DNA from: Kordiimonadaceae bacterium
GTDB lineage: Bacteria > Pseudomonadota > Alphaproteobacteria > Sphingomonadales > Emcibacteraceae
Assembly: GCA_018675425.1 (NCBI GenBank)
Contig: JABGYD010000006.1
Location: forward strand, 1-48,895
Direction of reading: 5' to 3'
DNA length: 48,895 nt
The translations under genes and the position numbers were made by a program. This document shows, in pieces, positions 12,463 through 16,501 of this stretch. Below the pieces are notes generated by a model. That model was not told where the DNA came from. It searched no databases and worked only from the letters and a program-made list of their open reading frames with translations. Within the stretch, counting starts at the first letter, position 1. Each line of letters starts with the position of its first letter.

Positions 12463-13572
12463 TTAGAGTAAATGGCCGGAGCGTTTTTTCTTAGTTTTCA
12501 AATAAAGGTCATTATGATTATTGGACGGAAACTTATGGGAAATACGCTCGATCACCTTAATACTGCAGGCTTCAAGCCCAGCAACTTTTTCGAGGTTGTT
12601 GGTCAGGAGTTTTATAGAATGATATCCCATCTTTTTGAGCATTTGAGCGGCTGGTTCAAATATACGTTCATCACTAAGAAACCCTAACCTTTCGTTGGCA
12701 TCTACGGTATCAAAACCCTGATCTTGTAGATGATAGGCGCGAAGCTTATTAATAAGACCGATACCGCGCCCCTCTTGAGCTAAATAAAGAAGTATCCCAC
12801 CCCCAGTTTCATCCATATATTTAATAGCACCACGCATTTGTTCGCCACAGTCACATTTAAGAGAGCCAAGTAGGTCCCCGGTAAAGCATTCGGAATGGAT
12901 ACGAGTAAGAACAGGGGTGTCTCGCGGGGGGTCACCAATTAAAATGGCAAAATGTTCTGTGCCACCATCCTCGGGACGAAAAGCAACCATGGTTGCTTCC
13001 TCTGCCCCCGCAAGCGGAATACTCGCTGACGTGATAATTTTGAGCGATAGTGCTTCATTTAAAGAATGGCCTAGAACATCTGAGGCCGAAACAACAAGAA
13101 CATTATTTTTTTTTGCCCATTCGGCAGCATGATCAAGTGGCGTTGAAAAAATTGTAGCAGGAAGCAAATTTGCTATCTTGCATATCTTAATGCCCGCGTC
13201 GTGTATATCAATTGGCATCTGTTTGGAAACTTGAAATGGTCCACGCATAATCTTAATAAGATCTTCTGCAGGGTCCGCCATTGATGCGATAATACTACTA
13301 TCCATATAATCTTTGATGCAAACTAATGCAACATCGCCGGAGCGTGGTGAAATTTTAAGGATATTAGCCCGATTATAGGTAAGGCCTAAAAGTGGTTCAC
13401 ATCCTGATAAGTCCATGAATAACTTAAGACGGCTATCGGTAATTAATTCTGCGGATGTGACGAGGAGGGCAAGGTTCTTAGCAGTTATCACGATGCTACC
13501 CCCGCGCCTGATATCTGATGCGGCGCGCTCAACGTTAATAAGTTTCTGATTGATGACGGAATTGTTATTCAC
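12463..13572 (-). CDS. ribA: GTP cyclohydrolase II with degenerate DHBP-synthase-like N-terminal domain
   Basis: First committed step of riboflavin synthesis: GTP to 2,5-diamino-6-ribosylamino-pyrimidinone 5'-phosphate, formate and pyrophosphate. The C-terminal half (about 205-369) is a clear GTP cyclohydrolase II with zinc ligands Cys229, Cys240 and Cys242 (C-x10-C-x-C) and the EGRGIGL motif near 267-273. The N-terminal ~195 residues resemble DHBP synthase (RibB) in outline but lack the acidic Mg-binding DRE-x-EGD loop and the RxGHTEA signature, so RibB activity is unlikely. This RibBA-like form with a dead RibB half is common in alphaproteobacteria. The gene is divergent from the PTPS-like/SDR pair and convergent with the permease. 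I saw no FMN riboswitch upstream. Confidence 0.88.
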   Translation of the reverse strand: MNNNSVINQKLINVERAASDIRRGGSIVITAKNLALLVTSAELITDSRLKLFMDLSGCEPLLGLTYNRANILKISPRSGDVALVCIKDYMDSSIIASMADPAEDLIKIMRGPFQVSKQMPIDIHDAGIKICKIANLLPATIFSTPLDHAAEWAKKNNVLVVSASDVLGHSLNEALSLKIITSASIPLAGAEEATMVAFRPEDGGTEHFAILIGDPPRDTPVLTRIHSECFTGDLLGSLKCDCGEQMRGAIKYMDETGGGILLYLAQEGRGIGLINKLRAYHLQDQGFDTVDANERLGFLSDERIFEPAAQMLKKMGYHSIKLLTNNLEKVAGLEACSIKVIERISHKFPSNNHNDLYLKTKKKRSGHLL

Positions 13573-13775
13573 GGTGCCCTCAAGTATATTTTAATTAGAT
13601 TATGGATTATTATAGGACTTATATAATATGAAGTTAAGATAAAAAATTAGAAAGATAGATAACCTATATTTATATATAAATACTCCTCGGTTATGGCGTT
13701 GACAGCTTTGAGAAAGGGCTTATGAAGTTTGGAAAATTGCTAGACTCTTCGTCTATCATTCTATATGAAGCGAAC

Positions 13776-14324
13776 ATGATGTTTGAGATATTTTTTACAC
13801 GACGTTACTGTATGAGCCATAGGTTATTTAATTTAAAAGATAGCAAGTGTTTTGTGCCCCACGGTCATAATGAATTTGTTAAAGTTCGTTTAGTGAGTGG
13901 AGGCGATGATAAACTCGATGGTAATGGAAACATGAGTAATGGCTTTAAATCATTAAAAGATACTTGGCATAACTGGATAGATAATTCGGTTGATCATAGT
14001 ATGCAGCTCAGTAACAAAGATCCTCTTCTTAATTATTTTAAAGAAAATGAACCGGAAAACCTTAAGCATATTCTTATTACACCAGGAGACCCTACAACAG
14101 AAGCCCTTGCCGCCTGTTTTTATGCTAAAATTAATGCATTTCTTTCGAATGAAGGCATAAAAATGCACTGCCAGCAGGTTGAAATTGAAGAAACTCCAAC
14201 TAATTCAGTTATTTTTTCTGGTGATCCAGACAGAGTAATATCAACAGCTCATTACGAAGGGCCTTTGATACCGTGGTGGAAACGTCCAGATATGTCTATA
14301 AATGATCTTGAGTTTGCTAAATGA
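13776..14324 (+). CDS. 6-pyruvoyl-tetrahydropterin synthase (PTPS/QueD)-like protein
   Basis: A tunnel-fold pterin enzyme. Numbered from this start, the zinc-binding histidines are His15 (CMSHRLF), His29 and His31 (VPHGHNE), and the catalytic Cys25 of the C-x3-HGH motif is retained, unlike the Glu-containing PTPS-III enzymes of folate synthesis. The C-terminal part, with TPGDPTTE and EETPTN, matches a longer ~180-residue branch I associate with Rhodospirillales rather than compact 120-residue QueD. The frame extends upstream to an ATG at 13722 preceded by GAGAAAGGG, but relatives align from the MFEIFFTRR segment, so I prefer the Met pair at 13776/13779. It overlaps the following SDR by 4 bases (ATGA), implying a shared pterin pathway. 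The exact product is unknown. Confidence 0.8.
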   Translation: MMFEIFFTRRYCMSHRLFNLKDSKCFVPHGHNEFVKVRLVSGGDDKLDGNGNMSNGFKSLKDTWHNWIDNSVDHSMQLSNKDPLLNYFKENEPENLKHILITPGDPTTEALAACFYAKINAFLSNEGIKMHCQQVEIEETPTNSVIFSGDPDRVISTAHYEGPLIPWWKRPDMSINDLEFAK

Positions 14325-15088
14325 CAGATGCGGTATTGGTAACAGCAGCCAACAAACGTATTGGAAAAGAAATTGCCAAAGTGCTTAGCCAGGCGGGATT
14401 TTATATCTATCTGCATCATCATGACAGTGCAGCGGAGGCCTCCCAAGCACTGGGTGAATTTGAAGCCGATGGCGAGTGTGTTCAATGTGATCTAGGAGAT
14501 TACGGCGAAGTTGAAAAAATGATCGCAGTTCTTGCTGAGGGTAGCCACACTTTAAAGCATGTTGTTAATAATGCCTCTCTATTTTCTGTTGATCAAGCTG
14601 TAGACTTTACGGAAAAAAGTTTTGCAGATCACATGAATATAAACCTGCGTGGCCCCATGCAGCTAACGCGCGGGCTATATAGGATGTTGGGTGATAATGA
14701 TCGAGGTAGTGTTGTTAACATTCTTGATAGTAAAGTATTTTCTCTTAATGCAGATTTTTACAGCTACACTCTCAGTAAATTCGGTCTTTATGGTGCAACA
14801 GAAATGATGGCCCAAGCCTTCAGTCCTAAAGTGAGGGTCAATGGTATTGCGCCGGGCCTAACTCTTATTAGTAAGACCCAATCTATGAAAAATTTTAGTC
14901 TTGCTAACCACCTTAATTTTGTTGGCGCACCACTTAAGGTTGGTGATATAGCCTCCACCGTACTACACATAATTAAGACTACATCAATAAATGGAGCAGT
15001 GATCCCGGTTGACGGTGGACAAAAAATGATGAACTTTACCAAAGATGTTGTTGATGTGGCTTCAGGTATTCTTAATAAGAATAAATAA
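14321..15088 (+). CDS. Pteridine reductase-like short-chain dehydrogenase (FolM/PTR1 type)
   Basis: NAD(P)H-dependent SDR, 255 residues. The cofactor motif is TAANKRIG (residues 8-15), in which the Arg after Lys is the signature of NADPH-using pteridine and dihydromonapterin reductases, rather than the usual TGxxxGxG. The catalytic set is Asp136, Tyr149 and Lys153, i.e. D-x12-Y-x3-K, with Asp in place of the usual SDR serine as in Leishmania PTR1. NNAS (83-86) and a C-terminal PVDGG segment complete the fold. Co-translation with the PTPS-like gene supports a role in reducing a dihydropterin to a tetrahydropterin; E. coli FolM makes tetrahydromonapterin. Substrate is inferred. Confidence 0.85.
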   Translation: MTDAVLVTAANKRIGKEIAKVLSQAGFYIYLHHHDSAAEASQALGEFEADGECVQCDLGDYGEVEKMIAVLAEGSHTLKHVVNNASLFSVDQAVDFTEKSFADHMNINLRGPMQLTRGLYRMLGDNDRGSVVNILDSKVFSLNADFYSYTLSKFGLYGATEMMAQAFSPKVRVNGIAPGLTLISKTQSMKNFSLANHLNFVGAPLKVGDIASTVLHIIKTTSINGAVIPVDGGQKMMNFTKDVVDVASGILNKNK

Positions 15089-15904: not shown

Positions 15905-16501
15905 TTAAAAAATATTTAGGCTGTTTCCCGCAATGCCAATGGGCCAATGGCCATCTTCATAAAGACGAAATTTAAGAGCAAACGGATGATTTTCTTCTTC
16001 ACCAGCTGCGATAACTAGTGCTGCTTGATAACAGCACTGCACACCAGCACCAATTGCTGCGCGTAATAGTTCCTCGTCTTCTATTCCCCAACGGATGGAG
16101 GCACTTTCAACAGCATTAGTTATATGTTCGGACGCTTTACTTGTGATATTTGTTAGGGCGACTTCCAACACGTCTTCTTCAATGAACCCTAGGGTTTCAG
16201 TAATCAGCGAAGCAGCAAGTTGTTCTTCTGCTTCCCAAGCAGGACTATTCCAGTCATTTGTCTCAAGGCAGGAAATTGTGTCCTGCCAGTCACATACTTC
16301 AGCTGGGTAACCTTCCGGAAATCCTAGTGCTTCAAGATAATGACGTGAGGTTTTAATGGTTTCAAGGCTTAACGCCTCACCAATATGATGAAACCATTTA
16401 GTTTTATTTATGAGGTCAGCAAATCGTGTAACTTGCATCAATGTAGGATATTCCTCACTGACATTAAAATCATCAAGTTCGTTTTCGCAACTTTCGGTCA
16501 T
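15905..16501 (-). CDS. Conserved protein of unknown function
   Basis: A 198-residue acidic, mostly helical protein that I do not recognise by name. It has no signal peptide or membrane segment. Visible features are an acidic N-terminus, a central region rich in Glu/Trp (about 75-110), two closely spaced cysteines (GVQCCYQAA, about 153) and a strongly conserved-looking C-terminus rich in aromatic residues and glycine (FALKFRLYEDGHWPIGI). It lies between lolA and xthA on the same strand, 17 bases before xthA. From memory, similar proteins occur in the same place in other alphaproteobacteria, suggesting a conserved lineage-specific gene. No function is proposed. Confidence 0.75.
   Translation of the reverse strand: MTESCENELDDFNVSEEYPTLMQVTRFADLINKTKWFHHIGEALSLETIKTSRHYLEALGFPEGYPAEVCDWQDTISCLETNDWNSPAWEAEEQLAASLITETLGFIEEDVLEVALTNITSKASEHITNAVESASIRWGIEDEELLRAAIGAGVQCCYQAALVIAAGEEENHPFALKFRLYEDGHWPIGIAGNSLNIF

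Follow-up and report, generated by a model that had tools for sequence, protein, structure and literature searches.

We analysed a window of 48,895 nucleotides, the whole stretch of DNA presented above, from a Kordiimonadaceae genome of 2.2 Mb in 94 contigs. Among named genomes, its closest relatives are MAGs that go under the labels Kordiimonadaceae, Emcibacteraceae, Emcibacter, Sphingomonadales or merely Alphaproteobacteria. The locus under study has the following features:

12463-13572, minus strand: ribA, encoding RibA (GTP cyclohydrolase II), by PF00925 and TIGR00505.
13573-13775, no strand: intergenic gap, the place of an OmpR-family response regulator gene in relatives that is missing in the window, by locus comparison and tblastn.
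13722-14324, plus strand: PTPS open reading frame as read open, 200 aa.
13776-14324, plus strand: long-form QueD of PTPS-I type, a putative 6-carboxy-5,6,7,8-tetrahydropterin synthase of 182 aa, by PF01242 over cut-off, motif and homologue context.
14321-15088, plus strand: pteridine-reductase-like SDR of clade II (defined below), 255 aa, by FolM PDB match, PRK09134 and tree.

An earlier note, made from the sequence alone, had called RibA, the PTPS open reading frame and the SDR, and all three genes are real at these coordinates. The 4-base overlap that it described between the PTPS stop and the SDR start is present as ATGA. Relatives do not conserve the 18 residues at the upstream end of the 200-aa frame, and some have stops in that stretch; the PTPS start was therefore set at the ATG at 13776, which is conserved among homologues and gives 182 aa. 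RibA is found close by in 24 of the 24 family genomes carrying the long PTPS, and the SDR lies at most ~120 bp from the PTPS gene in 23 of these 24 and ~2.1 kb away in the remaining one (G027); hence the arrangement is not a matter of chance. Some genomes are shared between the 17 named loci that form the window's group and the set of family genomes (e.g. L057/G048), so that the two sets are not independent. At gathering scores, an Rfam search of the window, L031 and L032 returned nothing beyond rRNA and tRNA, and a plasmid megablast gave zero matches.

RibA scores 188.1 bits on PF00925 (cut-off 23.3) and 206.1 bits on TIGR00505, barely over the cut-off of 205.85; its N-terminal half has no Pfam match. 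The earlier note had drawn this divergent, GTP-consuming gene into the making of a reduced pterin. The gene is divergent and does encode a GTP cyclohydrolase II, whereas the proposed role does not hold. GTP cyclohydrolase II makes a riboflavin precursor, not dihydroneopterin triphosphate, and RibA thus cannot feed the PTPS. As a source of pterin substrate it is ruled out by this established chemistry, and a FolE is encoded in the same genome on another contig than the PTPS. For comparison of neighbourhoods, the best 80 of 282 relatives of the long PTPS in named genomes were kept, 17 of them forming the window's group and 63 lying outside it; RibA is near the long PTPS in none of these 63 outside loci. 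An OmpR-family response regulator gene is located between ribA and the QueD gene in all 17 related named loci (L055-L071), with only 131 aa aligned in L063. A tblastn search of the whole window for a remnant of the regulator gave a lone match with E 8.7, located elsewhere. Further along the window, positions 15905-16501 encode a 198-aa protein which is conserved beside an exonuclease-like gene in relatives and has no Pfam match at E 1e-5.

The PTPS-like protein carries the C-x3-HGH motif recognised in the earlier note, as C25-F-V-P-H29-G-H31, and exceeds E. coli QueD in length, as also noted there, by ~60 residues, with a WWxRxD tail. C-x3-HGH is published as the signature of QueD, C-x5-HGH as that of biopterin synthase and E-x2-HGH as that of the folate bypass enzyme (PMC5041015). 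By these signatures, the window protein has the PTPS-I (QueD) motif; a PTPS-II (biopterin) assignment is rejected, with Ser23 at the Cys position, and so is a PTPS-III (folate bypass) assignment, with Phe26 at the Glu position. Across 32 aligned PTPS rows, position 26 is A in 19, F in 11, D in one and G in one. C25, H15/H29/H31, D73-H74 and E139 are invariant in 32/32 rows (window included); in the PTPS family, these Cys, His, Asp-His and Glu positions have catalytic roles. The motif Cys was found in 74 of the 80 loci (best 80 of 282 relatives), the other six having been missed by the extraction pattern. Shorter PTPS proteins in which Tyr replaces the Cys of C-x3-HGH are encoded at L051:1031-1489 (G014) and L049:8335-8751 (G003).

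Concerning profile scores, the protein is over the PF01242 cut-off, fails the QueD equivalog TIGR03367 (51.1 vs 89.25 bits) and is also below the 6PTHBS NCBIfam cut-off. Six more long proteins reach 52-58 bits on TIGR03367. For five of them the locus also contains queC and/or queE (L073, L079, L088, L103, L134), which indicates that TIGR03367 under-calls the long branch; the sixth, L076, has neither and scores 52 bits too, so the TIGR03367 score cannot separate linked from unlinked groups. A PDB sequence search gave no match at E 0.01. The AlphaFold2 model is T-fold-like with a mean pLDDT of 89.7, and Foldseek placed Wolinella succinogenes WS1659 first (3jyg, 180 aa, uncharacterised), a protein of similar length and 19% identity, followed by an E. 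coli PTPS homologue, Acinetobacter QueD2 and C. elegans PTPS, with identities of ~20%. Since QueD and C. elegans PTPS both appear at this level of identity, the fold speaks for family membership and not for QueD as against biopterin synthase. With the QueD/PTPS-I proteins of E. coli (4ntk) and A. baumannii (QueD2, 7v0f) the window protein has in common the C-x3-HGH motif, the conserved His, Asp-His and Glu positions and the fold. It differs from the solved QueD structures by its identity of only ~20%, and from QueD in general by falling under the NCBIfam cut-off and by a gene that stands apart from queC-queE in the window genome.

Homologues of the window protein, by contrast, do adjoin queC/queE. 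Of the 63 outside loci (best 80 of 282 relatives), queE lies beside the long PTPS in 55, queC and queE are both there in 36, and neither is there in eight; in the linked loci of the same 80, the distance to the long PTPS is at most 0.81 kb. Within the window's group, none of the 17 loci (best 80 of 282) has queC or queE. Weaker matches account for eight of the 55 queE calls. Four of these were sampled (L072, L103, L107, L134), and for each the best fit is the QueE model of B. subtilis type; L103 passes the cut-off of that model and the other three match as fragments. The gene-neighbourhood analysis of the long PTPS branch, which the earlier note had proposed as a check, thus yielded a queuosine context, and the claim that the product would be a reduced pterin "rather than queuosine" is not supported. 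C-x3-HGH is the QueD signature, and queC, queE and tgt are all present in the window genome, which has no second PTPS match.

The PTPS tree comprises 77 rows, namely 74 of the 80 loci, the window and two canonical proteins; six loci were dropped since the pattern missed them or they were too short. The window clade of 18 rows (100/99) lies inside a group of 25 rows (97/88) that holds the queC/E-linked L079 and L134 as well as rows without queC/E (L111, L074, L075, L076, L082). Hydantoinase A/B-like and catechol-dioxygenase-type genes flank the long PTPS in three of four inspected loci among the eight unlinked ones; these are L074, L076 and L095 (PTPS at ~6001), from Rhodospirillales/Acetobacteraceae MAGs. 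Pfam was run on all three genes of L076 and on the dioxygenases only of L074 and L095. Seven tree rows bear the label "_hyd", given after inspection of the neighbours for these three loci and without inspection for L075, L077, L082 and L084. The long PTPS beside such genes is possibly a catabolic paralogue.

In the window genome, QueE scores 316 bits (cut-off 240) and QueC 203 bits (cut-off 150). Both genes are adjacent on contig C3, not on the PTPS contig, and TGT is found in two pieces, each at a contig end. Profile search detected no second PTPS in this genome. Divergent to queC lies a DUF2889 gene (L031:10430-10984), with homologues in the same place in three other genomes (L045, L048 and L050). 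The earlier note had also proposed a search for folE, folB/folX and phenylalanine hydroxylase elsewhere in the genome. Besides FolE, queC and queE, we found a single match of PF02152, a family that spans both FolB and FolX, and no match for phenylalanine hydroxylase, which nine of the 32 family genomes have. PF00174 has three matches in the window genome, in frames of 425, 468 and 329 aa, none of them of the size of PruR (~170 aa, periplasmic), which together with DcpA makes up the PruA signalling system.

Across the order, QueC matches occur in 115 of 118 genomes, with only weak or partial ones in G033, G102 and G104, and PTPS profile matches in just 32 of 118. Identifying QueD by elimination is therefore weak. 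Profile search can miss a PTPS, since the copy in G072, to be added to the 32, was detected solely by protein search. When 19 PTPS-negative genomes were searched again at E 10, six weak matches and none over cut-off were obtained; the strongest of the six, in G009, resembles the terminal part of a PTPS gene truncated at a contig end. Adjacent queC-queE pairs are present in L042 (G005), L043 (G013) and L044 (G004). G004 and G005, single-contig genomes that have the pair, stay without a PTPS match when the threshold is relaxed to E 10, and G013 gives only one at E 0.35. Que genes thus seem to occur in the order in genomes with no PTPS detectable by these searches.

Motif and homologue context make QueD, which supplies 6-carboxytetrahydropterin to the queuosine pathway, the most likely identity of the PTPS-like protein. 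A dedicated tetrahydropterin route, biopterin-like or monapterin-like, with the PTPS producing 6-pyruvoyltetrahydropterin for reduction by the SDR, would agree with the conserved PTPS-SDR neighbourhood (23/24 family genomes) and with the row of SDR, FolB2 and PTPS on one strand in G014, a genome of another family. We regard it as very improbable, given that the motif is of the QueD and not the biopterin type, that PTPS homologues sit in queC/queE clusters, that the window genome has no phenylalanine hydroxylase match and that the SDR resembles PruA/FolM. The joint biopterin or monapterin pathway of PTPS, SDR and RibA put forward in the earlier note has little support in view of the same motif and queC/queE homologues, and of RibA being no source of substrate. 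The SDR as a partner of phenylalanine hydroxylase is likewise not supported.

As the earlier note had it, the SDR belongs with the pteridine reductases: its top PDB matches are Brucella FolM structures 5bt9 and 5tgd (E ~3e-35). Its best NCBIfam match is PRK09134, at 227.7 bits below the cut-off of 281, compared with 377 and 353 bits for the clade I proteins of L148 and L155, 291 for G014 and 265 for G105. TAANKRIG, which the earlier note had read as PTR1-type, is there from residue 8, and so is D136-x12-Y149-x3-K153. The D-x12-Y-x3-K pattern occurs in 29/29 compared SDRs of this kind (window included) and so does not point to PTR1 in particular. The published pteridine-reductase motif is TGx3RxG, together with YX3K (PMC13259868). 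Compared with it, TAANKRIG retains the Arg and has Ala for the Gly of TGx3RxG, and Y149-x3-K153 is present. Our SDR tree contains 29 sequences: the window, seven cassette-bearing family members, G014 and 20 chosen from 99 genomes with a match. Clade I unites 13 sequences (100/100), the window belongs to another group, clade II, and the fork uniting clade II SDRs with those of G014, G105, G053 and G007 has moderate support (93/86). The window SDR shares with PruA/FolM (PRK09134; Brucella 5tgd, 5bt9) the SDR family, the Arg of the N-terminal motif and D-x12-Y-x3-K; it differs by its separate clade, TAxxxRxG, the score below the PRK09134 cut-off and its linkage to QueD instead of CaCA and FolB. 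By sequence comparison we classify it as a divergent relative of Brucella FolM/PruA.

This relationship, and FolB neighbours, would also suit an alternative dihydrofolate reductase in the role of FolM, folate-linked and adjacent to QueD merely since both use FolE products. We consider such a role unlikely. An ordinary DHFR is encoded in 29 of the 32 family genomes, the window genome among them, so that the SDR as sole DHFR is not supported. Agrobacterium PruA is reported to be a reductase that reduces dihydropterins and does not reduce dihydrofolate effectively, although the Pseudomonas homologue prefers dihydrofolate (PMC13259868).

A CaCA exchanger gene lies directly upstream of the SDR in 13/13 clade I relatives examined; in the other seven of the 20 fetched SDR loci there is no CaCA gene within the few hundred bases of flank covered. 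In 7/7 cassette-bearing genomes examined, the CaCA-folB junction is present without an SDR. This empty slot, set against the position of the clade I SDR after CaCA, suggests that the window SDR plausibly displaced a native PruA-type reductase. In G008, another member of the family, no long PTPS match was obtained; this genome encodes a shorter PTPS with 87.4 bits on the QueD model and retains the CaCA-SDR-FolB order. From this single genome we infer that the cassette may also have displaced a canonical QueD. In G015, G027 and G054 the SDR is followed by a neighbouring FolB2.

The cassette could be taken instead as one queuosine module, in which the SDR serves QueD by turning oxidised 6-carboxy-7,8-dihydropterin back into the tetrahydro compound required by QueE. 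The ATGA overlap, the conserved pair, the same-strand SDR-FolB2-PTPS row of G014 and the PTPS C-terminal fragment of G009, which is convergent to an SDR at the contig end, are in keeping with it. Against it, FolB adjoins the SDR in 15 of 20 fetched SDR loci, 12 of which come from genomes that gave no PTPS match, and this SDR was seen at none of the 63 outside loci of the long PTPS (best 80 of 282), which leaves this module with little probability. An extended version, in which the clade II SDR is a repair reductase that keeps 6-carboxytetrahydropterin reduced and the cassette swapped out native QueD and pteridine reductase in one event, also seems improbable to us.

We thus probably deal with a long-branch QueD for queuosine and a cassette SDR that stands in for the native PruA-type reductase, RibA being merely a divergent neighbour. 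The observations behind this reading are the gene content and gene order, the homology and motifs, and the CaCA-folB slot without an SDR; catalysis and functional replacement are extrapolated from them. FolE, encoded elsewhere, would make dihydroneopterin triphosphate, which the long QueD would convert to 6-carboxytetrahydropterin, and the queE-queC pair on the other contig would carry this on towards queuosine. In most Emcibacteraceae-like genomes examined, the long QueD is part of a cassette with the clade II pteridine reductase, which in three of them has a second FolB after it, and the native reductase gene of PruA type is missing from between the CaCA exchanger and folB. The SDR, probably cotranscribed with QueD, would then have taken over the job of the native reductase, the NADPH-dependent reduction of a 7,8-dihydropterin to its tetrahydro form. 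RibA is an ordinary enzyme of riboflavin synthesis, its divergent position being incidental. The locus is most likely a modest variant of known enzymes and not a new tetrahydropterin pathway. In the literature, we found no paper joining QueD with a pteridine reductase.

These results are of interest in three respects. They correct a likely misannotation, since the long alphaproteobacterial PTPS falls under the QueD cut-off, yet queC/queE adjoin it in most of the outside loci examined (best 80 of 282). The QueD-plus-reductase cassette, seemingly replacing the native reductase, offers a natural case in which the role of the PruA-type pteridine reductase becomes testable. Moreover, many genomes of the order have QueC and no PTPS match, with queE beside queC where checked, and which enzyme makes 6-carboxytetrahydropterin in these bacteria is now a concrete question.
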